Source: Thermococcus zilligii AN1 (lineage in GTDB: Archaea; Methanobacteriota_B; Thermococci; Thermococcales; Thermococcaceae). Taken from it: a stretch of DNA of 64,000 bases. The stretch covers positions 186,001 to 250,000 of the forward strand of contig NZ_AJLF01000001.1 of assembly GCF_000258515.1 (NCBI RefSeq), in the 5' to 3' direction. The position numbers and the translations under genes are program-made. Of this stretch, positions 5,407 through 61,000 are shown piece by piece (within the stretch, counting starts at the first letter, position 1; the number at the start of each line of letters is the position of its first letter). Under the pieces are notes generated by a model that saw nothing but the letters and a program-made list of their open reading frames with translations, did no database searches and was not told the origin of the DNA.

Positions 5407-6069
5407 TCATTTGAGCTTTGACAGAATCCTCTCCGGGTGGAAGTTCAGGCTCGCCCTCGCTTCCGGGATTTCCATTCCGAGGTTTATCCCGAGGCTCATC
5501 AGGTCCCTTGGTCCCCTTACTTCCCACCTGCCCTCGGCGGAGCTCGTTAGAAAGCGCGGGACGTCGTATTTCCTCACGAGCTGCCATGTCTTGGCCATGA
5601 AGAGGAGGAGCTGAACCCTCTCGTAGGGGTTAACCCTGAGGAGTGGGGAGAGGGAAAACCCCACCGCAACCCCGTTCTTTGCGGCTATTCCTGCTAATAT
5701 GTGGTCGAAGCCGGGGTCGTTCCTTCCGAGCCATGGGCTTATCAGGGCATCGACGCCCGCCTCGAGGGCGGCGCGGTTCACCCGCATCTCACCTCCCTGG
5801 ACGTAGATCAAGGCCTTTGGATTGCGGTTTTTGACTTCCCGGATGAGGCTCGGTTTTTTTGTGATGAGTAGGAGGGCAACTTTGCCGTAGGCCCCGCGGA
5901 GGGCCTTCAGCTCCTCCCTGAGCGCGTCCCAGTCCGGGGAGCTTTCGAGGACGAGCTTTTTTGTGAACACCACCTCGTCGAACCACTCGCTCGCCAGCTG
6001 ATAGGCTTCATCGCTCCTCACGTCCATCTCTATGAAATAGTTCCGCGAAAAGGAAAGCTCCCCGCTCAT
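5407..6069 (-). CDS. rnp3: Ribonuclease P protein component 3 (Rpp30)
   Basis: This is Rpp30/RNP3, a TIM-barrel-like protein that pairs with Pop5 in archaeal RNase P, which trims tRNA 5' leaders. The 220 residues show the family features: an N-terminal YFIEMDVRSDEAY, and a central VNRAALEAGVDALISPWLGR followed by a DPGFDHILA block. The ATG at 6069 overlaps the stop of the upstream gene as ATGA, so it is preferred over the GTG at 6081. Coupling to the RNA-binding protein gene matches the conserved archaeal arrangement of exosome and RNase P genes. Confidence 0.92.
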   Translation of the reverse strand: MSGELSFSRNYFIEMDVRSDEAYQLASEWFDEVVFTKKLVLESSPDWDALREELKALRGAYGKVALLLITKKPSLIREVKNRNPKALIYVQGGEMRVNRAALEAGVDALISPWLGRNDPGFDHILAGIAAKNGVAVGFSLSPLLRVNPYERVQLLLFMAKTWQLVRKYDVPRFLTSSAEGRWEVRGPRDLMSLGINLGMEIPEARASLNFHPERILSKLK

Positions 6070-6521
6070 TCTTCCAGCCACTCCCTGATGGCTTTAACGA
6101 CGGCCTCCTTTCTCATGGGGAAAGCCTTGACCTTTATCCTGACCTGGATGACGTCGGCCCCCTCGTCTATCTCCACATCGCCAAGATAAGCCTTCTGCTT
6201 GTTGAAGCGGACGTAGAGGGTCCCCTCTTCGTCTACCTTCTCTTCAAGGTTCTCGAGGATGTAGCGCTTATTCTCCTCGCTCAGGAGTTCCTTGAAGTAG
6301 TCGAGGAACTGCCTCACGGCCTTGCTCTTTTGTATCTCAACGTTAACTACCTTGATCGGGTTGCCGAAGTAGCCTTCGGTCTCAACGACGTCGAAGATTA
6401 AGTCATCCTCGTCTATCTCCTCGGGAATAAAGGTCGCTATCGCGTCGAGGACCTTGTCCTCGTCTTCAGTCGCCTGGATGAAGGTGGTAAGTCTGACGTG
6501 GTGCGCCCTAAGCTTCTCCAT
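6066..6521 (-). CDS. RNA-binding protein, predicted exosome-associated (COG1325)
   Basis: The 151-residue protein matches the small archaeal family (COG1325) predicted to bind RNA together with the exosome and RNase P. It has an N-terminal segment LRAHHVRLTTFIQATED and a long acidic, helical middle, consistent with an L5/L11-like fold. The ATG at 6521 follows GGTGGGG; the GTG at 6530 overlaps that site and is unlikely. A TATA box (CTTTTAAAGC on the minus strand, about 6549-6558) implies a very short leader. It is co-transcribed with rnp3 through a 4-base overlap. Confidence 0.82.
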   Translation of the reverse strand: MEKLRAHHVRLTTFIQATEDEDKVLDAIATFIPEEIDEDDLIFDVVETEGYFGNPIKVVNVEIQKSKAVRQFLDYFKELLSEENKRYILENLEEKVDEEGTLYVRFNKQKAYLGDVEIDEGADVIQVRIKVKAFPMRKEAVVKAIREWLEE

Positions 6522-25768: not shown

Positions 25769-27250
25769 ATGAAAAAGCCTTTAACGGCTTTGACCGTGTT
25801 TCTAATAGTTCTCTCCCTATACGGAACCGCTGGATATGCTCAGGGGGCCGAAGAGACAGGTTCTCTAAAGCTCATATATTCCGGCTACGTCCTTAAAGGG
25901 CAGGTTCTTAAAGTTGGGACAACAGCGGAGGTTATAACTCTCACTGTGAAGGACGTTACCTCTGCTTCACTGGTTCTCAGGGTTGTCTCGATCAACGTGT
26001 CAACTGATCTGACCCTTTCCCCTGGAGAGTTTAGGGATATTCCTCAGATCCATCTCGCTGTCTCACTCAAGTCGCTTAGGGCAGATGACAAAGTTGCCTA
26101 CATAGATGTCTATTCCCAGAACGGCGTGCTTATTACTCCCCCAAGGAACCCGCCAAAGGTGAAGGTTTACCTGAACACAACGGTTGCTGAAGCAGTTGTG
26201 GGGCAGGTGATACCTGTAAACGTGAAAGTGGAAAACCTTGGCCCCGGTGAGATAAGGAACGTGACCATCGAAATACCCTCAATACAGGGATTGAAGTTAA
26301 CCGGGACTTCCGGGAGCGGAATTATTGAAACGTTGTCCGGTTACAGTTCGGCTTCCCCCGTGGTGTTCCTCCTGACCCCCACGAGGCCCGGCGAGTTTAA
26401 CGTTTCGGTAAGGGTTACCTACTACAATGAGTCCCTATCCAGGGTTACGACGGTGAGCGAGCCCCTTACGATAAAGGCCTACACTTCTCCAGAACTCACT
26501 GTCGGCATCGGAGGGACAAACTCGACTCAGGTAAAGGTTCCTCAGAAGTACGTGGTGTCCAAAAATGGTTCTTCTGCTTACGTCTTCATAACCGTTTCCG
26601 CCAGCCAGGGAAATCCGAACTTTGAATTCGCAAAGGACGTCAGCGTCGAGCTGAAGTACCCCGATGAAGTAACTGGCATAGAGAAAGTTTACTTTGGCAC
26701 CATAAAAGCCGGTCAGTCAGTGGACAAGGCCATCGAGATAAAAATCAACGGCGAGGGAATATATCCAATTGCGGCCGTTCTCAAGTACAAGGACCCCCTG
26801 GGGAACAGCCATGATTTGGAGCTCGGCACGGCCTTGATAGTTGATTCGACACCACCGAGGGTAGTCGTCAAGAAGGTTCCCGTGATTCCAACCGAGGAGC
26901 AGGTCCCCCAGGTGCTTGAGAACACTCTTGAGAATTCCAAGGACCCAAAAAAGGTTGCCGAAAGCGTTTATGCTGTTATATCCCCCTATCTGGAGACCGA
27001 GAAGACCGTTAAATACCTGAAGGTTTCGGTGGCAATACTCCTTTTACTCACCCTGATTCTCGCGTACCTTGCCGTGGGCTACTACCGGGAGGTCAGAACC
27101 TTCAGAAGGGTTCTCTTCAGGAAGAGGAAGTACAAGACAGGTGGATTGCCCAAGAAGTGGAGCAGGGACGAGCTTGAGAGTCTGTTGGGGGAACTGAGAC
27201 TCGAGAAAGTGAAGGAGAACCTCCCATCTGGGGAAGGCTCTGAGCTCTGA
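25769..27250 (+). CDS. Exported membrane-anchored protein with CARDB/NPCBM-like domain
   Basis: The 493-residue protein has a signal peptide ([19 protein letters not shown], cleaved near AQG at about 25). Residues 130-240 form a CARDB-like immunoglobulin domain ([21 protein letters not shown]), and more strands run to about residue 360. Residues 425-447 form a single membrane segment ([15 protein letters not shown]), and a basic cytoplasmic tail of about 45 residues follows. The topology is outside-anchored-inside. Similar proteins in Thermococcales belong to COG1361 S-layer-associated groups. No enzyme motif is visible. Confidence 0.75.
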
Positions 27251-27306
27251 TCTCTTTTAAAATTTTTAAAGGCCCCACTAAAATTCCTGGAGGGGTTTGG
27301 GCTGTG

Positions 27307-27663
27307 ATGTTCAAGTTCAAGCAGGTTATAGTGTCCAGAAAAGACCTAAAGCTCAGCAAGGGCAAGTTTGCGGTTCAAGTAGCCCACGGAGCCGTTACGG
27401 CGGCAATAAAGGCCCAGAAGGAGAAGCCGGAGTGGTTTAAAGCCTGGTTCCACGAGGGTCAGAAGAAGGTCGTTGTTAAGGCGGAGAACCTCGAGGAGCT
27501 CTTCAAGATCAAGGCCGAGGCAGAAAAACTTGGCCTCCCAACGGCCCTGATACAGGACGCAGGATTAACCGAGATTCCTCCTGGCACTATCACTGTCCTT
27601 GCGATAGGGCCCGGCCCAGAGGAGCTTGTTGACAAGGTTACGGGACATCTGAAGCTGGTGTGA
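27307..27663 (+). CDS. pth2: Peptidyl-tRNA hydrolase, Pth2
   Basis: The 118-residue archaeal/eukaryotic Pth2 releases tRNA from prematurely ended peptidyl-tRNA. Conserved residues are in [16 protein letters not shown] (K, Q and H of the active site), [10 protein letters not shown], and [25 protein letters not shown]. The ATG at 27307 gives the family's standard N-terminus (MFKFKQV); the preceding GTG at 27304 is less likely. TATA-like tracts CTTTTAAAAT and ATTTTTAAAG (27253-27271) lie upstream. Confidence 0.95.
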
Positions 27664-27670
27664 GGAGAAA

Positions 27671-27682
27671 TCCTTTTTAATC
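27671..27682 (+). promoter_or_regulatory. Promoter of the OLD-like ATPase gene
   Basis: TCCTTTTTAATC is a TATA box directly after the pth2 stop. The transcript would start near 27705, with GGTGGGA before GTG 27713, so the pair has its own promoter. Confidence 0.5.
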
Positions 27683-27712
27683 GGTTTGCCGTTTTCCGTT
27701 TTCGGTGGGAGC

Positions 27713-29044
27713 GTGAGACTGAAAAAGCTTGTGGTTAAGAACTTTAAGAGCCTTAGAAACTGCGAGGTCGAGCTCGGTAAGTTCAACGTTCTTGTTGGCC
27801 CAAATGCCTCCGGGAAAACCAACCTTGTTGAGGTATTCAAACTTCTGAGGAAAATATACTTTGAGAATGACACCAACCCCTTCCTCGAGTGGTGGGGCTA
27901 CAACAATGTGGTATGGGGCAGAAAGGAAGAGCTTCCCATAACCGTCGAAATGTTCTTTGATGTTGGTGGATACGATGTCTATTTTGAGACGACCTTCGCC
28001 GGAACGGGCGGGAGCTTCAGGATCCTGCGGGAGGTTCTGGAGGTTAGGGGATATTTCAGAATAGAAAAAGAAGGACGTACACTCAGGGTTTTTCACGACG
28101 CCGAGTTTATAAAAAGAGCCCTTCCAAAGCTTAAAACTGTTAAGACCCCCAAGGGACTTACCGAAGCATACGACTATTTCGTTAAACTTGACACAGAGGA
28201 GTTGTTGCACCTTGAGGCACAGTTGCCTTCAAACTATGCAGGGGAGACGCTTTTCCCATGGCCATGGAGAGCCTCGGCAATCTTCGATGAGAACTATGAA
28301 ACGGCATACATAATAACACAAACAAAGGATGATAAACCCATTTTGCCTTTAATTTCCCCCGTGGTTCAAGGTAAATGGGGTACTGAACCACTTGCATTTG
28401 AGTTAGGAGGGCTACTTCACGAAACAATACTTCCCACTCTTGTCCTGAGGCAGATTTATGTTCAAAATGTGAAGGAGCCAAAGTTCTCCCGTAAAGAAAC
28501 AACCCTCTCAGAGGACGCCTCCAACCTTGTCCCCTTCCTCTACAACATCTGGCTTCGTGAAGGAAGACTGCCGGATGAGATAGCAAAACCCCTCTCTATG
28601 GCTTTTCCCCACACCAGGGTTTTCTTCCAGCTGACTGAAGATGGACGGGTCATGATGAAGGTCTTTGATGGAGACCTTGAGCTTGCTCCCCCGGGCATCT
28701 CCGATGGTTTCTATAAAACCCTCGCTATCCTCACCGCTGCTTATCTCAAGCCTCCCCTCCTGGTGATAGATGAGATAGAGAACTCCCTCCATCCGGAGAC
28801 CCTGGAGTTAATTTTTGATGTTCTCCGTGAGAGTGAGAGCCAGGTCATAATAACAACTCACTCCCCTGTGGTCGTTGATATGACCGAGCCTTCTGACCTG
28901 ATACTGGTGGATAAAGTTGGGGGAGAAAGTAGGTTCATGAGGGTCAAAGATCCCGAGAAAATCAAGAAGTTCCTTAACGAAAAGGGCATTACCCTGAGCG
29001 AGGGCTGGTTATACGGCTCGTTGATTAATAGCGATGAACAGTGA
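27713..29044 (+). CDS. OLD-like AAA ATPase
   Basis: This SMC/ABC-type ATPase of 443 residues has Walker A GPNASGKT (29-36), an ABC-like signature ISDGFYKTLAIL (about 326-337), Walker B LLVIDE (349-354) and H-loop TTHSP (383-387). This is the core of the OLD/RecF-like family (AAA_15/21). No TOPRIM nuclease domain is fused at the C-terminus; the next gene appears to supply it. The start is GTG 27713 after GGTGGGA. The pair sits between pth2 and truD and has its own promoter, consistent with an inserted two-gene module. Defence or DNA repair roles are possible. Confidence 0.85.
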   Translation: MRLKKLVVKNFKSLRNCEVELGKFNVLVGPNASGKTNLVEVFKLLRKIYFENDTNPFLEWWGYNNVVWGRKEELPITVEMFFDVGGYDVYFETTFAGTGGSFRILREVLEVRGYFRIEKEGRTLRVFHDAEFIKRALPKLKTVKTPKGLTEAYDYFVKLDTEELLHLEAQLPSNYAGETLFPWPWRASAIFDENYETAYIITQTKDDKPILPLISPVVQGKWGTEPLAFELGGLLHETILPTLVLRQIYVQNVKEPKFSRKETTLSEDASNLVPFLYNIWLREGRLPDEIAKPLSMAFPHTRVFFQLTEDGRVMMKVFDGDLELAPPGISDGFYKTLAILTAAYLKPPLLVIDEIENSLHPETLELIFDVLRESESQVIITTHSPVVVDMTEPSDLILVDKVGGESRFMRVKDPEKIKKFLNEKGITLSEGWLYGSLINSDEQ

Positions 29045-29559
29045 TGGCTATGAACCGGGAGGTCGTCATAATAACCGAAGACGCATATGGGGGGGAGTTC
29101 TTTAAGAGGCTCGTAGACCGGCTAAAAAAGGAGGGGTTAGCGAATATTGAGTTGAAAAAGCTCTCTGGAAGGAGAAACCCTATTCACGCCCCTTATCTCT
29201 GCAACCCAAAGCTGGAAAAAATCCTCCGTGCATCCGAGCTTTCCAAGCCAGATTTTATACTCCTCGTATACGACGGGGATGGCCCATCGAATTACGCACC
29301 CCGGAAACAAGACGTGGAGAAACACGTCCCGTGTAACATCAAAACACCTGTCAAAATTCTTCTCTTTGAGTATGAAATTGAGGAGTGGGTGTGCAGGAGC
29401 TTAGACTATAGCTGGGCAATCAAACCCTCTGACGAGCTAAAACGACGTGAAGGATACGCCAAACATAAGCTACCCGAGTACGTGGACAAGCTTGACTTCA
29501 ATAAGCTGAGAAATAACTGCAAATCATTCCGGGAATTCCTGAAAATCGTGGGGGAGTAA
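29044..29559 (+). CDS. TOPRIM-like protein paired with the OLD-like ATPase
   Basis: The 171-residue protein reads like a stand-alone TOPRIM domain. The first acidic residue is E12 ([14 protein letters not shown]), the D-x-D motif is at 77-79 (ILLVYDGDG), and [10 protein letters not shown] (108-117) is a third acidic block. The arrangement recalls DUF4276 and RloB-like proteins, which accompany AAA ATPases in defence systems. The ATG overlaps the ATPase stop as TGATG, so the two products are co-translated. The family assignment rests on these motifs only. Codon use is somewhat A/T-rich compared with truD next to it. Confidence 0.65.
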
Positions 29560-29560: not shown

Positions 29561-30811
29561 ATGGACTACCGCGAGTTCTTTTCCCGGTTCCGATACCTGA
29601 GCGAGAGGCCCGGGATTGGTGGCAGGATTAAGGTTTTCCCCGAGGATTTTGTGGTAGTTGAGGAGCCGCTCCCCCAGATATTTGAGGGGGGCAAGCATGC
29701 CGTATTCCTCCTCAAAAAGCGCAACTGGGAAACCATGGCTGCCGTAAAGGAGATAGCCAAGCGTGCTGAAATAAGGCACAGCGACATCGGCTTCGCCGGA
29801 ACAAAGGACAGACACGCCGTGACCTATCAGTACATAAGCGTGCCCGCACGGGCCAGGGAGAAAGTTGAGGGCGTTCAAATAAGGGATATTGAGCTAAGGT
29901 TCGTCTCCTACGGGAAGTTCATCAAGCTCGGCTACCTCGTGGGAAACCGCTTCAGGATAATAGTCCGCGACGTTAATGGGGAAGCCTTTGAGAGAACCAG
30001 GGAAATAGTGGGGGAACTCAGGGAAAAAGGCGGTTTTCCCAACTACTTCGGCTACCAGCGCTTCGGGGAAAGGCGCGTTACCAACCATCTAATAGGAAAG
30101 CTACTCCTTCAGGGGGACTTCGAAGGGGCGGCAAGGCTCTTCCTCGGCGCTCACGAAGGTGAAATGGAAGGAGATGAGGCCAGAAGGCGTTTCTGGGAGA
30201 CCGGTGATGTGGACAGAGCGCTTGAGGAGTTCCCGAACTTCCTGAGGTACGAGAGGGCCATGCTTCACCGCTACAAGGAAACGGGGAGCTGGAAGAGGGC
30301 CTTCCTGGGCCTCCCTCTCCCGATAATGCGCATCTTTATTCACTCTTACCAGAGCTACCTCTTCAACCTCTACATTTCGAGGCGCATTGAGGAGGGGTTG
30401 CCCCTAAACGAGGCTTTAGTCGGAGATATCGTTGTCCAGGTGAAAGGGGGAATTCCCTACCGCGACAGAACCTACCGTGTAACCGAGACAAACGTTGATT
30501 TTGTCAATGAGAAGATAAGGAAAAACCAGGCCATGGTTTCAGGCCCCCTCTTCGGCTTTGCCATGAGAAGGGCCAGGGGACTACCCGGAAGACTCGAAGG
30601 GGAAATACTCGAAGGGGAAGGGCTTTCACCCGAGGACTTCAAAAGGCTCCCGAAGCAGATGGCGGAGCCGGGGGGAAGGCGGGAACTCCTGATAAGACCC
30701 CTCGGGCTGACCTACGGCTACGTCCCGGGGCAGGGCATGTGCCTTCGCTTCTTCCTCCCCAAGGGTGTTTACGCCACCAGCGTACTGAGAGAGATTATGA
30801 AGGACCACTGA
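29561..30811 (+). CDS. truD: tRNA pseudouridine(13) synthase TruD
   Basis: The 416-residue enzyme isomerises uridine 13 of tRNA. The catalytic aspartate is D83 in [14 protein letters not shown]. Other family blocks are the N-terminal [35 protein letters not shown], and [19 protein letters not shown] at the end. GTGGGGG precedes the ATG, which is one base past the TOPRIM-like stop, so truD may now be read through from that module. The neighbouring pth2 lies just beyond the inserted pair. Confidence 0.95.
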
Positions 30812-32456: not shown

Positions 32457-32487
32457 CTCGAGGGAGTTAGGCTCAGAGGTGAGGAAA

Positions 32488-35400
32488 ATGACCAAGAGGA
32501 TTAGACAGCCAATCATCGCTGTCCTCGGTCACGTTGACCACGGCAAGTGCCTGCTTCCGGAGGAGAGGGTAGTGCTCCCAAGCACCGGAATTGTCACGCT
32601 CAAGGATCTCTTTGAAAGGAGCAAAGGAGTCGTTGAAAAGGACGAGGAGAGGGAGGTAAGGCTTCTCAGGCAGGTTGTGGTTGGAGCGGTCGGGGACGGA
32701 AGGCTCTCCCTCCTTGAGAGCCCCTACGTCTGGAGGGTGAGACACAGGGGCAAAATCTTAAGGGTCAGGCTTAAAAACTGGCACGGCGTTGGCGTAACAC
32801 CGGAGCACCCGTTTTTGACCACGAGGGGATGGGTGAGGGCTGACCGGCTAAGGCCGGGGGATTACGTTGCCGTCCCGAGGTTCATCCATGGGAACGAAGA
32901 CAGGGAGATCTTTCTTTCCTACGTATCCTCGAAGGTTCCAAGGGGGTGGCCCGTGGCAAGGCCTGATGGAGAAGGCTTAAAGCTCCCCGAGACGGATGAG
33001 GAATGGAAGGCCCTCTTTTACTTTGCGGGGGTTATGTTCGGTGGTGGCACTCAGAAGATAGCGAACAACGACGTTGAAGTCTTTGAGAGGCTTAGGAAGC
33101 TTGAGGCCCTCGGAGTCGAGCTTAAGCAAATTGGGAGGGAAACATCCCTGGAGATAGAGCTAAGGAAGGGCAAAAACGCCCTTCTAAGCCTTCTCAGGCA
33201 CCTCTTCGAGTTCCCGGGGGAGAAGGCCAGCGGGACAAGGGTGCCCAACGTCCTCTTCATGGCACCGAAGGAATACGCCGCCGAGTTCCTGAGGGGCTAC
33301 TTTGACGCCGATGGCCACGTAAGCCTGAAGGACGCAAGAATCGAGGTTACCAGTCCCTCCAGAGGGTTCGTCGAGGACCTCTCGCTCGTCCTCCTTCGTT
33401 ACGGCATCGTTTCAAAGATACACCGCTCTGAACACACCACGCTGGTGATCTCCGGAAGGAGAAACCTGCTGGCCTTTGAGGAGCACGTCGGCTTTACCGT
33501 GAAGGAGAAAGCCGAGAGGCTTAAGCGCGCCATAGAGAAGAGCAAAAATAGCGAGGCTTATCCAGTCTTTGAGGAACTCAGGAGGCTTAGACTGCTCTTC
33601 GGGTTTACGAGGGAAGAGCTCAACTCGCTTGTGCCCTTCTACAGCAAATATGAGGGCAAAGAGGCACCCAGCTACGAGACGCTGATGAGAATACTCGATG
33701 CCATAGAGAAAGGCTCACCGGCACTTCAGCACAAGCTGGCGGCCCTTGAGGGGCGCTCAGGGGATCACAGCTACCTGAAGGCCCTTGAAAAGGACGGCCT
33801 GATCCGGGATGGAAGGCTGACGGAGCTCGGAAGGGAGCTTCTCGAGGTCTGGCGCAACAGGGAGTTCGACTCCAGCGATGTGGAGTACCTCCGCAACATA
33901 GCCGAGAACTTCGTTTTCATCCCGGTCGAGGCGGTTGAGGAGGAGGAATACGACGGCTACGTCTACGACTTGACCACGGAAACCCACAACTTCGTCGCCA
34001 ACGGGATACTCGTTCACAACACGACGCTCCTCGACCACATAAGGCATACCAACGTAGCAGGAAAGGAAGCGGGTGGAATAACCCAGCACATCGGTGCGAC
34101 AGAGGTTCCGATAGATGTGGTCAAGCAGCTTGCCGGACCGCTCATCCAGCTCTGGAAGGGCGAGATAAAGCTTCCCGGACTGCTCTTCATTGACACCCCG
34201 GGCCACGAGGCCTTCACGAGCCTGCGCGCGAGGGGAGGAAGCCTCGCTGATCTCGCGGTTCTCGTGGTGGACATCAACGAGGGCTTCCAGCCGCAGACGA
34301 TAGAGAGCATCGAAATCCTGAGGAAGTACAGGACGCCCTTCATAGTTGCGGCCAACAAGATAGACAGGATAAAGGACTGGAAGATTGGGGAAGACGAGCC
34401 GTTTCTGGTGAACATCAAAAAGCAGGACCAGAGGGCCTTGCAGGAGCTCGAGACGAAGCTCTGGGAGCTTATAGGGAAGTTCTACGAGATGGGCTTCCAG
34501 GCCAACAGGTTTGACAGGGTTCAGAACTTCACGCGGGAACTGGCAATAGTCCCGATCTCTGCCAAATACGGAATCGGTATCCCGGAGCTCCTCGTCCTCA
34601 TAGCAGGTCTCTCCCAGAAGTACCTCGAGGAGAAGCTCAAGGTAGAGGTCGAGGGGCCGGCGAGGGGAACGATACTCGAGGTCAGGGAGGAGCTCGGCCT
34701 CGGAACAACCATAGACGTCATAATCTACGACGGAACACTCAGAAAGGACGACATAATAGTGGTTGGCGGAAAGGACAAGGCGATAGTCACCAAAATCCGC
34801 GCTCTGCTCAAGCCCAAGCCCCTCGACGAGATCAGAGACCCGCGCTTCCGCTTTGACCAGGTTGATGAGGTTGTTGCGGCGGCGGGTGTCAAGATAGCCG
34901 CACCCGGCCTTGAGGAAGCTTTAGCGGGTTCACCGGTGATAGCGGCCCGCTCGGAGGAGGAAATAGAGAAGGCCAGGCAGGAGATCCTCAGCCAGATACA
35001 GAGCGTCGTCATAAACACAGGAAAGGTTGGGGTCATCGTCAAGGCCGACACCCTCGGCTCCCTCGAGGCCCTGAGCAAGGAGCTGAGCGGGAAGAACATC
35101 CCGATAAGAAAGGCCGACGTCGGGAACATCAGTAAAACGGATGTCATGGAGGCATTGAGCGTCAGGGACGAGGACGAAAAATACGGAGTTATTCTTGGTT
35201 TCAACGTGAAGGTGAACGAGGACGCCGAGGAGGTAGCGAAGGCCAGGGGCGTTCCCATCTTCGTCGGCAACATCATCTACAAGCTCATCGAGGACTACGA
35301 GGCCTGGGTCAGGGCTGAGGAAGAAAGGAAGAAGCGCGAGCTTTTGAAGAACGTTACCTTCCCGGGGGTTATCCGCCTCTACCCGGACGAGCGCTACGTC

Positions 35401-35757
35401 TTCAGGAGGAGCAAGCCGGCCATAGTTGGAGTCGAAGTCCTCGAGGGCAGGATAAAGCCCGGGGTTACGCTCATCAAGGAAACCGGCGAGAGGGTTGGAA
35501 CGATAAAGTCCATCAAGAACAAGAACGACTTCGTGCAGGAGGCGAAGAAGGGCGACGCGGTTGCCATAGCAATCGAAGAGGCCATAGTGGGCAGGCACAT
35601 CCACCCGGGCGAGACCCTTTATGTTGACCTCAGCAAAAACGACGTCATTTTGCTCGCCAAACAGCTCAGGGACGAGCTGGAGGAGACCGACATAAAGGCC
35701 CTCAAGATGACGGCGAAGGTCAAGGAAAAGGAGGACCCGTTCTGGAGGGCGGTTTGA
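32488..35757 (+). CDS. infB: Translation initiation factor IF2/aIF5B with intein
   Basis: The 1089-residue precursor is the GTPase that joins ribosomal subunits during initiation. The N-extein is residues 1-20, ending in the P-loop GHVDHGK. The intein is residues 21-511. The C-extein resumes with [13 protein letters not shown], then has switch [10 protein letters not shown] and NKID. Spliced, the protein has 598 residues, the normal archaeal length. The ATG at 32488 after GAGGTGAG is preferred to the GTG at 32479. The factor works only after intein removal, since the insertion splits the GTP-binding loop between Lys20 and Thr512. Confidence 0.95.
32548..34020 (+). mobile_element. Intein in the IF2 P-loop with LAGLIDADG endonuclease
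   Basis: The intein has 491 residues. It starts with Cys ([10 protein letters not shown]), has a block B region [20 protein letters not shown], and ends with [19 protein letters not shown], followed by Thr. The residues needed for splicing (Cys1, block B His, terminal His-Asn, +1 Thr) are all present. A DOD endonuclease lies in the middle; the second motif LRGYFDADG is intact, while the first reads FAGVMFGGG, where the catalytic acid should be. A winged-helix-like segment follows. Inteins at this site are known from other Thermococcales. The endonuclease is probably weak or dead. Confidence 0.93.
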
Positions 35758-48845: not shown

Positions 48846-49007
48846 ATGCTCAGGGGGATAAGACGCGAGCTCGTGGAGTACATACATGAAAGGACAGGCA
48901 TTGACAGGGGAGCCATAGTCAAGATCCTCCGGGCTGAGGAGGCCTTCTTTGCCATGCAGATTGAGAAAAGCCTCAAAAATGAGGGGAGCAGGAGGGAGGA
49001 AAGTTGA
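48846..49007 (+). CDS. Small protein, 53 aa, upstream of the giant surface protein
   Basis: The frame runs from ATG 48846 to TGA 49005-49007. The product is helical, begins MLRGIRRELVEYIHERTG, and continues with IDRGAIVKILRAEEAFFAMQ. GGGGGTG lies 5 bases before the ATG. The stop overlaps the TTG of the next gene (TTGA), so the two are coupled. The helix-turn-helix-like spacing (IDRGAIVKILRAEEAF) suggests a small nucleic acid-binding or protein-binding domain; no family is recognised. Confidence 0.6.
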   Translation: MLRGIRRELVEYIHERTGIDRGAIVKILRAEEAFFAMQIEKSLKNEGSRREES

Positions 49008-52000
49008 AAAGGACGATGGCCCTTCTCCTCCTGGTTGTCCTGCTGACATCAATGGTGCCCCCCTGGGCCGTTGAGGTGGGAATAGTCCACGCCCAGACTG
49101 GAGAGGCCGCAGATGTTGGAATCGTGGATACCGCTTATAGGGTTTCAGGGGGCGACCTCATCATCAACGCCACGCTGAAAAACTATGGGGGGGCCAGCGG
49201 GCCCTTCAACGTCACATTCGAGGTTTTAACTCCCACGAGCCCGCCATCGGTTGGGGAGGTGCCTTTCAAGTGGGTAAACATCACGGAGTACCTCGACGAT
49301 GCGGTGGTTGCAGGTGATGGGGACTACATCGAGAACGGGAGCGCGGTTATAAGGTATGACGACGGCCACTTAATCTACAAACTTCCGTTCAAGCTGAACT
49401 TCTTCGGGAGGAGCATAACCCACATCTCGGTCAGTACAAACGGCTACATTGAGCTGCTCGGCAAGTGGGAGGAACGGAATTTTGGTAGAGCCTTTGGTGT
49501 GCACATGTATGCAGACTACTCCACGAGCGACATCATATTCGCCCTCGATGACGACCTCGATACCAGGAACGGCTATCTGCTCGTGGTCGGCTTTCCTGAC
49601 AGGGTGGTGGTTGAGTGGTTCGGTTCAACATACCGGGACAGGAACTCCCTCTCAAACCCCCTGAACTTCCAGGTGGTCATCTTCGCCAACGGGACAATAA
49701 GGTGGAGCTACCGCCTGCTCGGGTATTCCTCATATAGCTATGACCTCTTCACCGGCTACTACTCCAAGGTCACCGGGGAGACCGTCGGCTTCGAAAAGGC
49801 CGCGGGCAAAAGCTTCGAGCTGAAGGTCCCCTCTGGTTCTCCGACGGTAAAACGTGTTGAGGTCTCGGGGATGCCGGAGGGGGGAAGCACAAACGTCTCG
49901 GTTACCCTCCCCCTGGGGGAGTACTACATCAAGATCATAGCGGACGATGAGGAAGTTCTTGACGACCCCTACAGGGGTGATAACGTAGCGGAGCTCGGGA
50001 TATGGCCAGGGGACTACTGGGTGGAGAGCGCGACCATCGGAGAGATCACGCCTGGCAGGTGGGTTGATATCAACTTCACCATCGGGAGCACATCGAAGAA
50101 CCCCCGCGCAGTGGTTGAGCTCCTGCGGAACGGGAATGTGGAGGGGCGGAGGTATTTGTACAGGAGGGATTTCAAAAACGGCACCGCCTCCGGGAGCTTG
50201 AGCTGGTTCGCCCAGGGGGGAAACTATAACCTCACCCTTGTTGTGAGGGCAGACCTGGACATCAACGAAACGAACAACGCCTATTTCCTCAGGGAATACA
50301 ACCTCCCGCTGCCCAACTTCAGGATAGCTAACTACACGATCAGACTCCCCGGCTGTCTCGGTGAGAGGGCGCTCATTCTGGTCAACGTCACCAACGATGG
50401 GGGGGCTAACTGGAGCTGGGTCGATATAAGGGCCTCGGTTCTCTACGGGGACAACACAGCGGTGAGCTACCTCACGACGATCTCGCTGAACGCTGGGGAG
50501 ACTAAAGAGGTAACCCTGAGCTTAGATGTGAAGCCGGGCAACGTTACGGGAGTCAGGATAGAGATTGACCCCTACGAAAAAGTCGTGGAGTCAAATGAGA
50601 GCGACAACTCCCTCACAGTTCCCATATCAAGAACCTACGAAAAACCTGATTTCACTGTCTCATCCATTGAAGTCCCGGCGAACGTCTCCACCGGAAACGC
50701 CTACCAAGTGAATGCCACCATCGAAAACCTCGGCGGCTGCTACGCCGGAAACGTCAGGGTGAACCTCTACGAGAACGACTATTATGAGAGCTACGCCTAC
50801 ACAACGGTCAACGGTTCCACCAGGGTTTCTCTTGGGTGGACGCCTTCTTATGTCGGTGAGGTGAACCTAACGGTTATCGTTGACCCGTACAACTACATTT
50901 CCGAGCTGAACGAGGACAACAACGAGCTGACAAAGACCGTTTTTGTGAGCGGCCCGGACTTAGTGATAACGAAGGTCACGCTTTTGAGCTTCGACGGGAT
51001 TGCAGGAAGCGGGGCCGCCTTCAACGTAACGGTGAAGAACATAGGGAAGTCTTTCACGGGTGGCTTCTACGTTGGAACAAGGGGGGCGCTGGGTGATGAT
51101 TCCAGGTATATCTCAGGCGGCCTTGCCGAAAACGAGAGCAAGTGGGTTATCCTTAGGCCGATCCTCAACGGTGGCAACTACAACCTCACGTTCAAGGCGG
51201 ACATTTACAACTACATCCCCGAGCTGAACGAGAGCAACAACGAGTACAAATTCCCCATCAGCGTGCCCCTTCCGGATTTTGTTGTAACAAACGTGAGCAT
51301 GCCCAGCAACACCGTTGGCTACGTTATCTTCAAAGTGAACGTTACGAACGTGGGGGCGCCATACAACGTTACGCAATATTCCGTACCGGTCCTCTTCAAA
51401 CTGCCCTGGGGTACTTACACCAGCTACATCAACAGGTACACCGTTGGGAACCTCTTTGAGAGCGGGGAGAGCGCTTTACTGCAGTTCTCCGTGGTTGTGT
51501 ACCCGCCCGGTGGCACCGTTAACGTTACGGTGAACTCGAATGGCAGAATAGCCGAGGCCTCTTCGGATAACTCCAAGGTCTTCAACTACACCACCGGCTA
51601 TCCCGACTTCGTGCCAGGGCTGATCCTTCCCGAGGGCTTTAAGGCTGGGGATAACGTTATCGTAACGGTGGTTGTGTTCAACAGGGGAAACGCCACCTTC
51701 AGCGGCACTGGGGGCCCAGGACTGTCCGTGCACCTGAATCATACGACGGAGGCTGGGGGCGTTCAGTCGTACTTCACCCTTTATGGGCTGATTCCCCCGG
51801 GAGGAAACCTGACAAGGACGGTAACGATCAATGCCCAGGGCGGCCTGAACACCATAACAGTAAAACTTGACTACTCAAACACCTGGGCGGAGCCGAACGA
51901 AAGCAACAACGTTGACTCGGTGAGCTTCACCCTTGAGAAGCCCGACTTCACGATAACGGGACTCTCTGTCCCCGGTGAGGTTCTCAACGGTTCGGCATAC

Positions 52001-55000
52001 CTGTGGAAGGGTTACGAGATAAGGGTGAACGTGACAAACCTCGGAGGGGACTTCGGGGGCACACTCGCCGTTTTCCTCTACGAGGATGATGAGTACGAGT
52101 CCTCAGGCTGGATAAGTGGTCTTGCTAAGGGCGAGACCAAAACCGTGACCCTCTACTACTACCCCGACCCGGAAAGCCACAACGTAACTGTCATTGTCGA
52201 CGGGCCCAACCGGTGGGCCGAGGGCCGCGAGGATAACAACAAAAGAACCTTCCAGACGTCCTTTGGACTGCCGGAACTCCAGCCCCTCGGCGTGACGTGG
52301 GAACCCTACAACTTCACCTCGGGTGAGAACGTCAGGTTTACGGTCTACACCACGAACCTCGGGCAGGCCTTCTACGGGAGCTTCTCGACGAGGATAGAGA
52401 TCTGGAACGGAACGAGCAGGATAACCTACGGCTGGGCGTATCCGCCCAACTGGTATTTTGACCCAAACGCCACAAAGACCCTCACGTGGACGTGGTACAA
52501 CGCCAGGCCCGGCAACCTGACGGTTAAGGTAATCGTGGACTATTACAACGACATCCCCGAGCTCAACGAGGGCAACAACGGGTACACGGCATACCTGGGC
52601 TCAATCGGGACGCCGGACTTCGAGCTTGAGAACCTGAGCGTCGGTGAGCTTGCCTACGGAAAGTGGGTCGACGTAAACGTCACCCTGAGGAACCTTGGCC
52701 AGGCCATCTACAGGCCCTTCAGTGTGCTCTTCAACATCAGCGGGGAGCTCTACTACAGAACCGTCTACGGCATCGGCGCAAACGGGTCAGTTGGGCTGAA
52801 CTTCAGGTGGTACGCCGATAGAGTTGGGGAGGTATTGATTACCGTAAAGGCCGATCCGGGCAACGGGATAATAGAGTCCGACGAGAGCAACAACGAGGTT
52901 TCTGGCAGCTATTACGTCGAGCCCCCCGACTTAACGATAAGCTCCTACGAGTGGGTTCAGGCCGATGTGGCGAGGGGCTACCTCACCTACCGCGTGAACG
53001 TCACGAACCTCGCCGGGGACACCTATAGGGGCTTCTACGTGGCCCTCTATGTAGACGGGGAGTTCAAGGGGGAGGTCTGGGTCAGCTCGCTCATGGGTGG
53101 CAAGACCGTTGAAAAAACAATCTCCTGGCGCTTCAACGTCGGCGGAACCCATGAGGTGAAGCTCGTCGTTGACCCCTGGAACTACATCCCGGAGAGCGAC
53201 GAAACGAACAACGAGGTCAGCACGGAAGTTACTATCGAACTGCCCGACATCGTGGTTACCTCCATAAGCGCCCCGGAGATGCACGCCAATGCTTTCTTCC
53301 CGGTGAACGTGACGGTTAGAAACGCCGGAAACCAGGACATCGCGAGGGGCTTCCCGGTTGTGGTCTATCAGGACGGCAGATATCTCGGAGGGGCATGGGT
53401 TGGCTCTCTCCCCGCCGGAGGCGAGGCGAACGTTACCGTCTGGATAAGGCCCTATCCGGGCGATTCAACGCTGAAAGCCATTGCAGACCCGGGGAACTAC
53501 GTTGTAGAGGTCAACGAGACCAACAACGAGCGCTCTATCCCTGTCCACGTTAGAGCGCCGGACATAAAGGTAGTCTCGCTCTCGCCGGGGAACTTCACGT
53601 ACTCCGGTGAAACGGCCAGCGCAACGGTTACCATCAGGAACACCGGCGACTACGAGACAGGAGCGTTCTTTATTGTGATCCGCAACGGAGTAAAAATCCT
53701 CGGGAGGGCCTACGCCCCGAGCATAGCCCCGGGCGAAGAGAAGAACGTCACTGTGGCATGGACGGCCGACTCCGGAAGCTACAACCTCACGGCGGTGGCT
53801 GATCCGGAAAATGTCATCCGCGAGTGGGACGAGACGAACAACGAGGTTGCCGTCCAGGTCACCGTCCCCGCTCCTGATCTGGTCGTTACTTCATTCGCCT
53901 ACTCAGGGAGCGAGGTCGTTGGGGCTTACATCAACTTCACGGTTACCTTCAAGAACATGGGAAGCACAACGATGCTTCCCTTCCACGTCGGGATATACGC
54001 AAACGGCACGCTCGTCGCCGTGGAACTCGTCCGCGGCTTGGGTGGAGGGGAAAACGTAACTCTGACCTTCACCAACGCCTGGAAGGCCCGCTATGGCACC
54101 TACACCCTGAGGGCGGTTGCTGACCCATTCAACGAGGTCACCGAACTGGACGAGACCAACAACGAGAAGAACTTATCAGTGACGATAATCGACGAGAAGG
54201 CCCCCTACCCTGTCCAGTTTTACCCGGCCAACGGGAGCTACACCAACGAGCCCGCCGTTGGAATTCTCCTCTGGGACGACGGTTCAGGGGTTGACCTGCT
54301 CAGGAGCGAGCTCAGGCTCTACCTCAACGGGAACCCTGTCAACGGCTCATCAGCCTTCATCTACGGCTGGCTGGTCTTCCAGAACTCGACGCCTCTCCAG
54401 GACGGGAACTACTCGGCGGTGGTCACGGCATACGATAGAGCTGGGAATTCCAGGATCTACACCTGGAGCTTCGTCCTCGACAGGAAGGCACCGGAGATAA
54501 GGACGAACGTCACGGATGGGGCGCTTTACAACGGGAGAGTGGTTCCGGGCGTTGAGGTCATTGACGAGAACCTGGGGAACTACACGGTAACGGTCAACGG
54601 AAGGCCCTTCACAGGAAAGGCCATACAGGTGGATGGGACTTACACGCTCGAGGTTAAGGCGGTGGATAAGGCCGGCAACAAAGCCGAGCTGAGGGTTACC
54701 TTCACCGTCAACGGCATCCCGCACCCGCCGGGCGGTTTAACGGTCAGGCTCAACGGCTCCTACGTCGAGTTGAGCTGGCTCCCCAGCGGGGATTCCGACA
54801 TAGCCGGCTATTACGTCTACCGCGATGGGATCAGGTTAAACGACGAGCCCGTTGAGGTCACCCGCTTCCGCGACCTCTACTCGGGAAGCCTCAACTACAG
54901 CGTAACCGCGGTCGACTTCGCCGGCTTCGAGAGCGAGCCCGCCTACCTCTTCCCGGCGAGGCTGGCCATAACGCCTGGAAAGCTCGTAACCGGCTATCCC

Positions 55001-58000
55001 GCTTCCATCAAAGTCACCGTTGAGAACTACGACGGCGCCGTCACCGGAAGGCTGGCCCTTGAGCTGGTGGATACCTTCGGAAACGTTATCGGGAGGCTTG
55101 AGAGGGAGGTCGAACTCTTACCTGGCAACACCACCGAGACCTTTGTTACGACCGTTCCAGAGGGCCTCGGCTCGCTGAGGGCTTCGCTTACCGTCCGCGG
55201 CTCTTCGACCGAGGTACTCATCCCCGTGGCGCCGACCGAGGCCAGGGCCCCAGAGATCACCGTGCACAGCCCGAGAACCGGTCTCCCGACGCTGGTGGAG
55301 GTAAAGCTGACCAACCACGGCTCGGCGCCGCTCGATACCTCGACTGCAACGCTAAAGCTCGGGAACGCCACGGGAGAGCCCATTTCGCTGTTGCCAGTCC
55401 TAATGCCAGGCAAGAGCGCGACCCTGAGCTACCGCGTCGTTCCGGGGGGAAGGGGAACCTACAACCTGACCTTCAGGCTCGCCGGGATAGTGGCCATTAA
55501 AGAGGTCCAGGTCAGGGACCCCGTGGCAAACCCGGTAATGGTGTCCACAGAGGGCTTTGTGAGGAGTGGAAGGGCTAAGGTCTACGTAACCTTCAGGAAC
55601 ACGGGAACTGCCCCGCTCACCGTCAGGGGCGTTAGCGTTCTCGGGATGGAGAGGAGCTTCTCGGTAACCGTCCCGCCGAACCTTTCCTTCTCCGCTTCCT
55701 TCGACTACGTTGTCCCGGCCGATGCGCCGGAGGAGATGGCCATCAAAGCAACGGTCAGAACTGACGTCGGGGACTTCACGAGGGTAGCCACCGTTTCAAC
55801 GGAAGAGCCACCCTACAACGCCAACGTCACCGTTGGTAGGGTCTTTGAGGCTGGTGAAGAGATCACCATCGAAGGCTTCGCCTACAACGCCAGTGGACTG
55901 CTCCCGAACGTTACGGTGAGAGTTGCAATAGCGAGGGGCGACTTCGTGAGGGAGTACGCCGTCATGACCGACGGAACCGGCCGCTTCAGACTGACCTTCA
56001 GGCCCTATCCAGGGGAAGCGGGCCACTTCGTCGTGAGCGCGACACACCCGAGAGTCCTGACCCTTGAGAGGGACGCCGAGTTCGACGTCGTGGGCATAAG
56101 CGTGAGGCCGGACGTCTACGCCCTCAGGGTCACGAGGGAGTTCAGAGGGAAGATCGAGATAACCCTCGTGAACTACTGGGAAGAGTCCAGCGTCTCCGTT
56201 TCCGTGAGCGCTCCGGCATGGCTAAACCTCACCATCCCATCGGGCCTGACCCTGAGGCCCGGCGTTAACGTGGTTGAGGTTGCCCTCTCGAGCAATAACG
56301 CCGTGAACGGGACGGCGACGATAACGTTCAGAACGACCCAGCTCGGCCGGGCCATAGAGAGGAACCTCACGCTGAACTTTATCGTTCTCCCGCCCGAACC
56401 GATAATCGTCGTTGAGCCGGGGGCCCTCGAGGTTGGAGTACTCACCGGTGAGACCGCGAGCAGGAGCATAACCATAAAGAACGTCGGCTTCGAGACGCTG
56501 AGGAACGTCACCGTTGAGAGCTCCATCAGCTGGGTTAAGGTAGCGGGCAACTTCGCTCAGCTTGCTCCAAAGGGAGCCGAGAGCATAGCCCTCTACATAG
56601 TGCCACCCTCGAACCTAACTGGAACTTTCGAGGGCAGAATAAAGGTGAGCTCCTCCAACTACCGCGACGTTATCATTCCGCTCAGGATCACCGTGACGCC
56701 GAACGCCACCGGAGCTGTCACCGTCATAGCGATGGACCCCAACGCCACGAGGCTCGGCGGTGCGAAAGTTGTCCTCTACAACGGCTACGCCCACTTCGAG
56801 GGCGGTACCGATGAGAAGGGCACGATAACGTTCACCGACGTCCCGATAGGTGATTACACCCTCTTCGTCTCGAAGGAGGGCTATTACACGGTGAGCAGGA
56901 AGGTAACCGTCGAGGCCGGCGCTGAGAAGAACGTAACGGCTGTGCTGATGCCCTCAATCCTCCAGGTCGAGTGGGAGGTAGTGCCAGTAACGATAGAGGA
57001 CGTCTACATAATCAGGCACGAGATAGGCTACTCCACCCACGTCCCGGCGCCGGAGATAGCGAGCTCCGGTGGCGACCTTGAGGTCTACGTGGACTACAAG
57101 AAGCTCGCGGAGGCCGGCTTTGTGGAGCTCCGCGGCCAGCTAATAGTTACAAACACCCACCCATACGTCTCGGTCTTCAACGTCACCTTTGGGAGCAGCG
57201 GGAGCCACTACATCGATGTCGAGTTCGCGGTAGATAGGATAGACGAGCTGAAGCCCGGGGAGAGCGTCGTCGTCCCCTACGTTGTGAGGATCTACTACCA
57301 GCGCTCGCCGCCGATAAACCCCTGCTTCCACGAGACCACCGTGCTCAAGCTCAAAGCTGGAGTTATATGCGTTGAAGAGGCCGGGAAGATAACCCTGGAG
57401 GCCCAGAAGGTTCACCAGATAGTTGTCAAGCCCACCTGTGAGGGCTGCTTGAAGTCCCTGGCACTGGTTGGGGGGAAGGTAGGGTTCCTTGTCCTGGGCC
57501 AGGCTATAGGGGACATCCTCGGCGAGATAGACGACACAAACTTGGCCAACACCATAGCTGGTGAGGCACTGGACAACCTGGAGAGCCTCTACGACGCCTA
57601 CGCCCAGCTGGTCATGAACCCGACACCAGAAAACTACGAGAACTTCGTCGAGACCTTCAACTCCGCCAAGAACAACCTCGCCCAGCTCCTGGCGTCTCCC
57701 TTCGCCTCGAACCCGTTGCTGTATCAGGAGGTCTACAACCGGATATCCTCCTTCCAGCTCACGGTTGTCAAGGACTCCAGCGGCAACATCGTCGGCTTTG
57801 GAATGACCATAACAAAGAACCCGACCTACGTCTACGCCATGGGGACGGTGAGCGTGACGGACGGGCAGGTGACGGTTGACTGGGAGAAGGTAACTTCGAT
57901 AGCGACCAGCCTGGCCTCGGGAGTGCTTTCAAAGCTCGGGAGCGTTGGGTCAAGCGTCGTCGGGGCACTGGACATCTTCCAGCTCATAGACAAGGTCGTG

Positions 58001-61000
58001 AGCGACATGACTCCATACCTGGCGCAGGCGGGCATAAACTGCGGGGTCTGTCTGTTGCACAACAACTGTGCACCTCCGCAGAGTGGGAGACCCAGCGTTG
58101 CACAGCTCATCTACTATGGCTCCCTCGGTGGCTACTACTATGTCTCTCCCGGAGGGGGCGCAGGCGGAGGGGGAGAGACCAGCGTGGGCAGGTTCACGTG
58201 TGAAGGCCTGCCAACCGTCCGCGGGGGGAGCTCAGGCGGTGGCTCAAGCACGCAGAGCTGTCCGTCCTGCTCCGTCCAGGCCTTTGAGAAGGCCGGAAGC
58301 GTGGCCGGAGGGAGGGTATGCAGGGCCGTTCAGCTTGGTGAAGGCGGTGGCGGAGGAACCTTGAAACCTCTTCAGCAGGGTGGAGAGAATCAAGGCAACA
58401 CACTGCACATGTGCGTTGACCTCGTCATAACCATAGAGCAGAGGCTCACCTTCGAGAGGCAGGCCTTCAGGGCTTCGCTGAAGTTCACGAACACCAACGC
58501 CAACTACAGCCTCAGCAACGTCAACGTCAGCGTGCTCTTCTTCGACAGCGAGGGCAAGCCGGCCAACGACAGGTTCTTTGTCAGACTCGACGAGGAGAGC
58601 GGTTTAACCGGCGACACACTGCCGCCCCAGGGGCAGGCGAAGATGAGGTGGCTGATAATCCCGAAGGTAGGCGCGGCGGAGAAGTTCAGGACGCGCTACT
58701 ACGTCATGGCCAACATAACAGCTAAAGTCGGCAACACGACGCTCGTCTACGAGACGTGGCCCGTTTTGATAGAGGTCGAACCCGTTCCCCAGCTTGAACT
58801 TGACTACGTCATCCCGCCGAAGGTCTACGGCGATGACCCCTACACGCCGGAGAAAGAACCACCGGTTCCCTTCGTCTTCGGTGTCAGGGTCAAGAACATC
58901 GGCTATGGTGTAGCCAAGAACCTCCGCATAGCCTCGGCCCAGCCGAAGATAGAGAAGGCGAGCTATCCTGGCGTCTACATCGACTTCAGGATACTTGGAA
59001 CCCTCGTTAACGGCAGGAAGGTTCCGAACAGCCTCACAATTGACTTCGGCGACTTAAGGCCCGGAGAGAGCTCAACAGCCGCCTGGATAATGAGCGTTGA
59101 GGTAACCGGCGACTTCACCTACTACAACGCCACCTTCAGGCACAGCGACGAGCTTGGCGGCAACGAGACCTCGCTGATTAGGGAGGTAAGGACGCACTTC
59201 CTCCTGAAGGCCTTCAACAACACGGCCAACGACGACGGCATGCTCGACTTCCTGGTTGACGACGACAGGGATGGGATACCGGAGAAGATACTCGACTCCA
59301 GCGGAGAGGACTACACAGTCCTGTCGGTTAACTTCACGAACGAGACAGGCAGGGGCTTTGTAAAGGTAATCCCGCTTGTCAGAAGCCCTGGCTGGATTTA
59401 CATGAGCATCCCGGTGACGGGATACACGAGAGCTATGAGGAGCGACGGAAAGGAGCCCGTGGCCCAGTGGATCGAGGGCGAAAAGCTCCACATCCTCGAC
59501 CTCGGGACGGCGGACTTCTACGTCCTGAAGAGCAACAGGAAGCCGGTGCCGGTGATAAGCTACAGCGAGCCCATCGTGGTGAACGGGACTGTGAGCTTTG
59601 ATGGGTCTCTGAGCTACGACCCCGACGGAAAGGTCGTGGGGTACCTCTGGCGCATAGGCAACGAGACCTTTGATGGTGTTAGGGTCGACTACACCTTCAA
59701 AGAGCCGGGCGTCTACAACGTCACCCTAACTGTATGGGACGATGAAGGGGCCAGCGCCTCGGTAACCAGGCAGATCAGGGTCTACGGAGGGGCTTCCTTT
59801 GCAGTTAACCTAAGGAGAAGCCCGGAGTGGGGAGTGATACCCTTCAACGTCTCCGTCTACCTCAACGTGACCAACATCGGGGATGCCCCGGGAACCTACA
59901 ACGCCACCCTCTACCTCGACGGGAGCCTGGTGGCATGGAGCGTTTCGGTGATTGAACCGGGTGAGAGCAGACTCTTCGCCTTTACCTTGGAGATAAGCAA
60001 GGCCGGCGAGCACACCATCAAAGTGAACAACCTCAGCGCAGTCGTTAGGGGCTACCTCAACGTAAGCCTTGCCAAAAACGAGAGCTATGCCTTCAGCAGG
60101 GACTTTGGCTTCTACAACACAACCTCATGGGAGCCATTCAGGAGGGACTTCGAAGACTGGAGCACTGATATTCTCTCCACGGTAAGCGTCTCAACGGAGG
60201 GCTTTGACGAGGTGTTCAGCGTTAGCTTGGGGAACTGGAGCCTCCTAAGCTGGAGCGAGGGTCTGGCAGTAGGCTCGCAGACGGGCTGGATAAACGCGAC
60301 CTACTTAAGGACGGTGGTAGTAAGGGGCCTCATTGGCTACAACATGACGACCCTCTATCTCCACCAGGTCGTTAACCTGTTCGCCTATGCGAGCCACATC
60401 CATGACTCGGAACCGCCGAAGATAACCATACTCTATCCAAGGGCCACAGTATACGGGTCGAACGTTACGGAGATAAGGGTCAACGTGACGGATGAATCGG
60501 AGATAGCCTGGGTTAGGGCCGAGATAGACGGCATTCCCTACAGCTTGGCATTCGTTGATGGGGTTTGGGTCACCCACGTGAATATAGGCGACGGGTGGCA
60601 CGAACTCGTTGTTATGGCCTCGGACGTCTGGGGCAACGTTGGAAAGGCGAGCCTTAACTTCACGGTGAACACCGGCATCAGGGTACAGTACATCAACGGA
60701 ACTGAGGTTATCACTATACCGGGTGAACTTGAGAGCGACGTCCAGGTATCAAACGGGACAGTCATAGTCACGGTTATTGGGGACGGTTGGAGGGCAGTGT
60801 TCGAGTTGCCGAAGAGCCAGAGACTCTTCATCGATGAGAGACTCTCTGATAAGCCATGGCTCCTGGTCAGAAGTTCGGCCGAACTTGAACGGGTCGATGA
60901 TATATCCAGGGACATAAACGACGCAGGTGAACGCTCTGTAATTCGGCTGGTGAGGGCGAAGATAAGGGGCGAAAAGGACGGATACGCAGTACTCATGGTT

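Follow-up and report, generated by a model that had tools for sequence, protein, structure and literature searches.

The window, by which we mean the whole 64,000-nucleotide stretch of DNA analysed, comes from a heat-loving archaeon and carries an ABC ATPase gene and a gene for a 171-aa protein as an overlapping pair within the pth2-truD operon on the forward strand. Upstream of the insertion lies pth2, encoding peptidyl-tRNA hydrolase 2 (27304–27663, +; PF01981, E = 4.9e-44), and downstream lies truD (29561–30811, +; PF01142, E = 4.6e-131). The ATPase, which is of the OLD/SMC type by Pfam, by the HEC-01A profile and by its structure model and is our proposed sensor, is 443 aa long and runs from a GTG start at 27713 to a TGA stop ending at 29044 (+); an alternative in-frame TTG lies at 27686, and the conserved start V/M-R-L-K-K corresponds to 27713. 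The small Toprim-like protein, our proposed nuclease effector from its motifs, profile matches and model, occupies 29044–29559 (+), from an ATG at 29044 (alternative GTG at 29041) to a TAA ending at 29559. Its ATG overlaps the ATPase stop by one base in the sequence TGATG, which yields the 171 aa. Because truD starts with an ATG 1 nt past the stop of the small gene, it belongs to the same array. An earlier note on this DNA had described a two-gene unit with overlapping start and stop codons, placed between two translation genes; the open reading frames 27713–29044 and 29044–29559 and the Pfam identities of the two flanks bear out both points.

Past the stop of pth2 and ahead of the ATPase gene, a T/A-rich, TATA-like stretch (27672–27682, +) is similar in all 14 carriers with a complete joint, as judged by comparing the sequences by eye. 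It is a plausible, putative promoter belonging to the pair itself, and it could instead be a pth2 terminator. Immediately upstream of pth2, 25769–27250 (+) encodes a 493-aa secreted or membrane-like protein with no Pfam match at 1e-5. Further along the window, 32479–35757 (+) holds the gene for an IF-2/aIF5B-type translation initiation factor with an intein (Pfam), whose splicing domain spans residues 73–514 with a LAGLIDADG domain and is followed by the GTPase; 49004–61387 (+) is a single open frame of 4,127 codons with a TTG start, encoding a giant protein. A Pfam scan of 10 further window genes found no defence family among them, and one of these had no match at all.

The ATPase matches the Pfam families AAA_21 (E = 2.2e-29, above the cut-off) and AAA_15 (1.6e-20) and, among the system profiles, HEC-01A best (6.8e-37), followed by mad3 (4.6e-31), AriA (1.7e-30) and AbiLi (6.8e-26). 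This holds across its relatives. In alignment A3, which covers 29 of the 34 loci found in the scan described below (L101, L115, L117, L121 and L127 were dropped), 30/30 aligned ATPases match all four profiles at E ≤ 1e-10, again with HEC-01A best. Walker A (residues 29–36, G29–T36; 27797–27820, +) falls in invariant or near-invariant columns; in the Walker B/D-loop segment LLVIDEIENSLHP (28760–28798, +), D353, E354, E356, N357 and S358 are invariant, as is the switch His383 (28859–28861, +). Taken over the ABC head as a whole, G34, K35, G332, D353, E354 and H383 are invariant and D331 nearly so. The protein thus possesses Walker A, Walker B, the signature-side S-D-G and the switch His that define an ABC ATPase. 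Its model (pLDDT 86) matches the heads of SMC, Rad50 and PtuA at Z 17–20 and the OLD protein 6p74 at Z 17.5, so that Pfam and structure agree with the earlier description of an OLD/SMC-type ATPase without a fused nuclease. Past Walker A, the ATPase family also has a near-invariant P-F-x-x-W-W-G-Y-x-N-V motif (27878–27922, residues 56–70), possibly a hallmark of this ATPase clade.

Toprim domains carry a conserved Glu after strand 1 and a DxD after a later core strand. This arrangement is found in the model of the small protein (mean pLDDT 90.8), in which E12 (codon 29077–29079, +) follows a predicted strand at residues 5–11, and D77-x-D79 (29272–29280, +) follows a predicted core strand at 71–76. 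In alignment A2, built from 27 of the 34 loci (the broken or partial L101, L107, L111, L120, L121, L127 and L129 were left out), D77 is invariant among the 28 intact members, conservation reaches at least 90% at E12 and D79, and the block E111-I-E-E-W115 (29374–29388, +) is invariant in 28/28 rows. The earlier note had thus placed E12 and D77-x-D79 correctly, and the third acidic block that it mentioned is E111-I-E-E-W.

By itself, the window's small protein matches known profiles weakly (DUF4276 0.094, HEC-01B 0.021, mad4 0.0074) and no Pfam family above the cut-off. Across the family at E ≤ 0.1, DUF4276 is matched by 17 of the 28 rows (best 2.2e-5), mad4 by 17 (best 2.8e-6), HEC-01B PDLC04196 by 16 (best 4.4e-9), RloB by 5 and AbiLii by 2, counts that are not independent, since the 28 rows are related to each other. 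The curated Pfam cut-off for DUF4276 (PF14103) is 30.2 bits and the window protein scores 13.4 bits; judged by these profiles, it is a relative of DUF4276 and not a formal member. Motifs and family matches to HEC-01B, MAD4, DUF4276, RloB and AbiLii together uphold the idea of a stand-alone Toprim-like partner. The second protein's small size, which the earlier note took as the distinctive trait of the pair, proved not to be distinctive because the matched profiles are also short (192 positions in DUF4276, 197 in HEC-01B PDLC04196 and 110 in mad4); proteins of the DUF4276 kind normally have this size.

Structure comparison of the small protein in VIA placed an OLD Toprim domain in the first row (6nk8_B; Z 8.2, rmsd 3.9, 146 aligned), with further OLD Toprim matches at Z 7.8 (6njx) and 7.7 (6njv) and Piwi MID domains within 1 Z of them (Z 7.8–8.1, 111–116 aligned). 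Foldseek gave no match to the same model at E ≤ 1e-3. A sequence search of solved structures with the small family returned no Toprim protein at E ≤ 1, its best match being a tRNA 2'-phosphotransferase (0.012). We consider it likely that the small protein is a Toprim protein.

When the genus alignment was scanned against 84,980 species genomes, 34 loci were recovered, all 34 of them titled archaea: Thermococcus, Hydrothermarchaeota, many Methanoperedens, Bathyarchaeota, Helarchaeota and Nitrososphaerota, as well as Altarchaeum, Archaeoglobaceae, Ferroplasma and other Thermoplasmata. In 33 of the 34, the next gene upstream, on the same strand, is the ATPase; the remaining locus (L115) is cut by the contig start. 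This constancy of the pairing (33/34 archaeal loci) is well past chance and marks the two genes as a conserved unit. Broken copies show frameshifts (L101, L121, L129 and the ATPase of L117), internal stops (L107 and L111) or deletion of the DxD part (L120); most come from draft assemblies, and therefore some may be sequencing errors. A pattern scan of IMG/VR contigs found no relative of the pair, and tblastn with the window protein found none in PLSDB. A PF14103 search of 115 genomes of the phylum gave 0 matches and was uninformative, as the controls also gave 0/14. In the literature we found no paper on DUF4276 and no description of the present pair; an earlier account of HEC-01 relatives in archaea may exist.

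The neighbour survey comprised 245 ORFs called in 26 loci and a Pfam scan of 20 neighbours from 15 loci. The 20 scanned neighbours were metabolic, repair or unknown genes, and the idea of a defence island was rejected. Ten Methanoperedens-type loci (L103–L108, L111–L113 and L121) have a UvrB gene just upstream of the pair, named in one member by Pfam and in the others by BLAST clustering, with an antisense ORF between in L111. On a Nitrososphaerota contig (L122), a phage-type integrase gene (5470–6360, −) is found some 0.5 kb away from the pair, the sole sign of a mobile element near the 20 scanned neighbours.

Within the genus, presence of the pair is sharply polymorphic at one site. Among 61 genomes sampled, pth2 and truD were each found in 58, and 53 have both on one contig in the order pth2-truD. 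Of these 53 readable joints, 14 carry the pair and 39 are empty: the joint is 1,782–1,946 nt long in the 14 carriers, all with the ATPase (14/14), versus 6–12 nt in the 39 empty genomes, none with it (0/39). The comparison of pth2-truD spacing that the earlier note had proposed therefore finds the insertion present in 14/53 and absent in 39/53 genomes, which bears out an accessory insertion rather than the universal presence that would have spoken against it. The other eight genomes have the order truD-x-pth2 (3), a split or partial site (3) or neither gene (2). In the three with inverted order (G010, G020 and G083; L165), about 780 bp lie between the genes, and x in G010 is a HAD-type phosphatase by eye. 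A general insertion hotspot at pth2-truD was rejected, with cargo other than the pair in 0/53 readable joints.

On a species tree from two genes (AspRS and inositol-phosphate synthase) covering 33 of the 61 genomes (the 14 carriers and 19 of the 39 empty ones), carriage requires 12 changes versus 10.9 ± 1.5 with shuffled labels, and presence is therefore without visible tie to descent. The pair has been gained or lost between species as near as G004 and G035 (distance 0.027). At the level of the family, the small protein is matched in 20/94 genomes, partial and broken copies counted: 16/61 in the window's genus, 1/3 in a second genus and 3/9 in a third. The carrier of the second genus (G085) likewise has it at pth2-truD. 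In the third (G095, locus L246) it sits at another site, next to a CDP-archaeol synthase-like (carS-like) gene named by eye, and in the one-contig genome G089 (L244, around 1510–1620) it has decayed to 39 residues from the C-terminal part of the small protein, flanked by carS-like and GTPase-like genes in what is apparently the same place as the intact G095 pair. In several pairs of species, divergence is lower at the joint than across the genome, a pattern compatible, as far as sequence goes, with homologous recombination in the flanks having exchanged the region. Between G021 and G011, dS is 0.02 in the small gene and 0.53 in truD, against 1.76 for AspRS and 1.03 for inositol-phosphate synthase; we do not press this single case, because the draft genome of G021 contains 3% contamination. 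The TruD values of G027 were not used, as that record has a stop or frameshift. Patchy, dispensable and turning over among close relatives, the pair shows the distribution expected of a defence system.

The strongest and distinguishing trait of the pair, which the earlier note missed, is the hypervariable, recombining middle of the ATPase (residues 117–258, or about 120–255; 28061–28486, +), our proposed trigger-recognition domain from block identity and allele discordance. Among the 14 carriers, mean pairwise identity per 20-residue block is 6–27% at residues 121–240 versus 71–95% at 1–100 and 261–440. The Methanoperedens-type ATPases (n = 14) show the same pattern, with 27–35% at 141–240 and flanks at 72–96%. 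In nine genomes, matches from the genus ATPase searches are split in two around residues 133–240. The middle is folded in the model (pLDDT block means 67–87 at 141–250). Among G073, G027 and G077, its dN/dS is 0.58, 0.31 and 0.15, with 0.07–0.10 in the flanks, and the middle is therefore a constrained protein rather than debris; no dN/dS > 1 was found in the middle among these three, and in most pairs the synonymous sites have reached saturation.

The middle sorts into recognisable classes that are discordant with the remainder of the gene. The sequences of G008 and G029 are 93% identical in the flanks and 83% in the small protein but 9% in the middle, where G008 is instead 38–39% identical to G034 and G013. 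Similarly, G000 shares 90% of its flanks with G073 but 13% of its middle, and its middle is 32% identical to that of G065. In 75-nt blocks over codons common to both sequences compared, so that block numbers differ from residue numbers, G013 and G011, nearly the same in the small gene, differ in the middle at 39–48 of 75 nt per block, and G011 and G021 differ at 0–3 of 75 nt over shared codons 101–225 and 14–19 of 75 over 226–325, being near-identical in the middle and at the cassette end and divergent in between. For groups picked after inspection of the identity table, AU tests on flanks plus small gene rejected {G008, G034, G013} (p = 3e-52), and on the middle they rejected {G008, G029} (2e-4), {G000, G073, G027, G077} (1.5e-6) and {G013, G011, G021} (7e-47). 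A single history for the whole cassette is therefore rejected. The middle of G095, in another genus and at another genomic site, resembles the G003/G004 class by eye. One genus holds at least four allele classes on nearly constant backgrounds; a middle that is hypervariable, predicted to be folded and swapped between alleles is new here.

We considered whether the middle might vary through relaxed selection alone, with no role in recognition. Its strong variation in length and sequence and a dN/dS that stays below 1 within G073/G027/G077 would fit, but the region is folded in the model, and its classes recur on different backgrounds, as when the middle of G008 resembles those of G034 and G013 (38–39%) and its flanks those of G029 (93%), or when G095, at its other site, reads by eye as the G003/G004 class. 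Drift without constraint makes no common alleles across discordant flanks, and we hold this account to be unlikely. The same domain bears on a selfish toxin-antitoxin pair, in which a Toprim toxin and an ATPase antitoxin would be retained by post-segregational killing and not for defence. Two overlapping genes, patchy, decaying and mobile between sites, suit such a pair, and PARIS has also been described as a toxin-antitoxin (PMC11455837); a hypervariable, allele-swapping domain would nevertheless be pointless in an antitoxin whose remaining parts, like the toxin, are conserved. This reading, too, has a low probability, and it is compatible with defence rather than exclusive of it.

A role in DNA repair or the cell cycle, with an SMC/Rad50-like ATPase and a Toprim nuclease acting like the Sulfolobales OLD protein Cran1, seems highly unlikely. 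Absence of the pair from 39 of 53 genomes with a readable site, its gain or loss between species 0.027 apart (G004/G035), its decayed copies and a hypervariable middle that is atypical of a repair enzyme all stand against it, even though the ATPase model fits SMC/Rad50 heads best (Z up to 19.8), the pair follows uvrB in 10 Methanoperedens-type loci, and Cran1 is essential and linked to the cell cycle in the accessible part of PMC12796447. It is still less credible that the pair regulates the pth2-truD operon or tRNA metabolism and is sited there for that function. It does lie between two tRNA-related genes, runs straight into truD and occupies the same site in the second genus (G085), but other sites exist (the carS-like gene in G095, uvrB in Methanoperedens-type loci) and 39 genomes lack it; we regard this role as extremely improbable.

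We favour the reading that the pair is probably an accessory archaeal defence module, in which an ATPase sensor would govern a Toprim effector and the recognition domain would be renewed by recombination. In its favour are the pairing in 33/34 loci, the profile matches, the conserved residues of catalytic type, the 14 versus 39 genomes with and without it, the hypervariable middle in two unrelated lineages, the mosaicism, and the second site and ghost in the sister genus. Against it are neighbours outside the family that are housekeeping genes (uvrB in the 10 Methanoperedens-type loci) and not defence islands, the lack of relatives in IMG/VR (pattern scan) and PLSDB (tblastn), and, for the small protein of the window, weak profile scores and a fold match tied with other Rossmann-like folds. 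The main caution comes from Cran1, the archaeal OLD protein studied in vivo, which according to the available text of PMC12796447 is essential and serves the cell cycle rather than defence.

With a layout like that of separate-gene ABC-ATPase/Toprim systems (PARIS, MADS3-4, AbiL and HEC-01), the module would act against viruses or other elements. A dimer or oligomer of the ATPase may keep the small Toprim protein inactive until an invader product contacts the fast-changing middle domain (about residues 120–255); binding and ATP turnover would then free or activate the Toprim protein, which, with E12, D77, D79, E111–E114 and Mg2+, could cut nucleic acid and so stop growth. A tRNA or other RNA seems a slightly likelier target than DNA. 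We assign trigger reading to the middle and the effector role to the small protein because of the analogy with PARIS and the pattern in WonAB.

More tentatively, and with somewhat less than even confidence, we propose that the locus is a fixed-site polymorphic immune receptor, whose engine and effector would stay constant while its recognition domain is replaced by homologous recombination between species. If so, a single chromosomal slot would hold an allelic series of virus specificities, an archaeal counterpart of allele-swapping specificity subunits or of plant resistance-gene loci, in a design that recurs in Methanoperedens. Very few ATPase-nuclease alarms have a known trigger. In this case, natural variation flags the likely recognition domain and provides at least four allele classes, so that domain swaps could be tested directly. 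For Thermococcales, the pair would add an immune module other than CRISPR, from a family found here in archaea only (34/34 loci), and would contrast with Cran1, the one tested archaeal OLD protein, which is non-defensive.

That contrast extends to architecture. Cran1, a class 5 OLD protein of Sulfolobales, is likewise an archaeal OLD-type ATPase with a Toprim domain, but it is fused, conserved and essential, whereas the window pair is split and, by its distribution, dispensable; the accessible part of the Cran1 report describes a cell-cycle essential protein that could not be deleted and for which no antiviral role was seen (PMC12796447). PARIS, a class 4 OLD system of AriA ABC ATPase and AriB Toprim tRNase in which an AriA hexamer sequesters AriB, likewise encodes its ATPase and its Toprim protein separately within one operon, and the window ATPase matches the AriA profile (1.7e-30). 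There the ATPase senses a phage product and the restrained Toprim partner is then freed and cuts tRNA (PMC11455837; PMC12409363, the latter in its accessible part). In contrast to PARIS, the window effector has just 171 aa, and none of the 28 small proteins matches the AriB family at E ≤ 0.1 in the profile list, an absence that is no proof. The WonAB/PD-T4-4-like pairs also combine an OLD-type ABC ATPase sensor with variable inserts and a nuclease effector, although WonB is a PD-(D/E)xK nuclease and the window effector is Toprim-like; in the available text, the authors of the WonAB study make the case that ABC-ATPase sensors paired with nucleases form a broader family, and they remark that the ATPase inserts vary (PMC12137116). 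A survey of BREX, in the part accessible, similarly links OLD-ABC ATPases widely to Toprim and other nucleases (PMC12839542). AbiL (AbiLi with AbiLii) resembles the pair on the ATPase side (AbiLi 6.8e-26) and less on the effector side, where the match is weak (AbiLii in 2/28 small proteins). For MADS, whose pairing of Toprim and ABC ATPase is noted in the accessible part of PMC12409363, both halves find matches (mad3 4.6e-31 for the window ATPase, mad4 in 17/28 small proteins), but the window pair is stand-alone, with no methylase between pth2 and truD and without the full gene set, and its ATPase scores 94 against an NCBIfam MAD3 cut-off of 420. HEC-01 (PADLOC Hma-embedded candidate 01, HEC-01A ATPase with HEC-01B) has the ATPase profile that best matches the window ATPase (6.8e-37) and 30/30 relatives, and its HEC-01B profile PDLC04196 is matched by 16/28 small proteins (best 4.4e-9; the window protein just 0.021). 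Unlike HEC-01, the window pair is not embedded in Hma or other defence genes but flanked by pth2 and truD, and its archaeal clade is set apart by a WWGY motif and a hypervariable middle.
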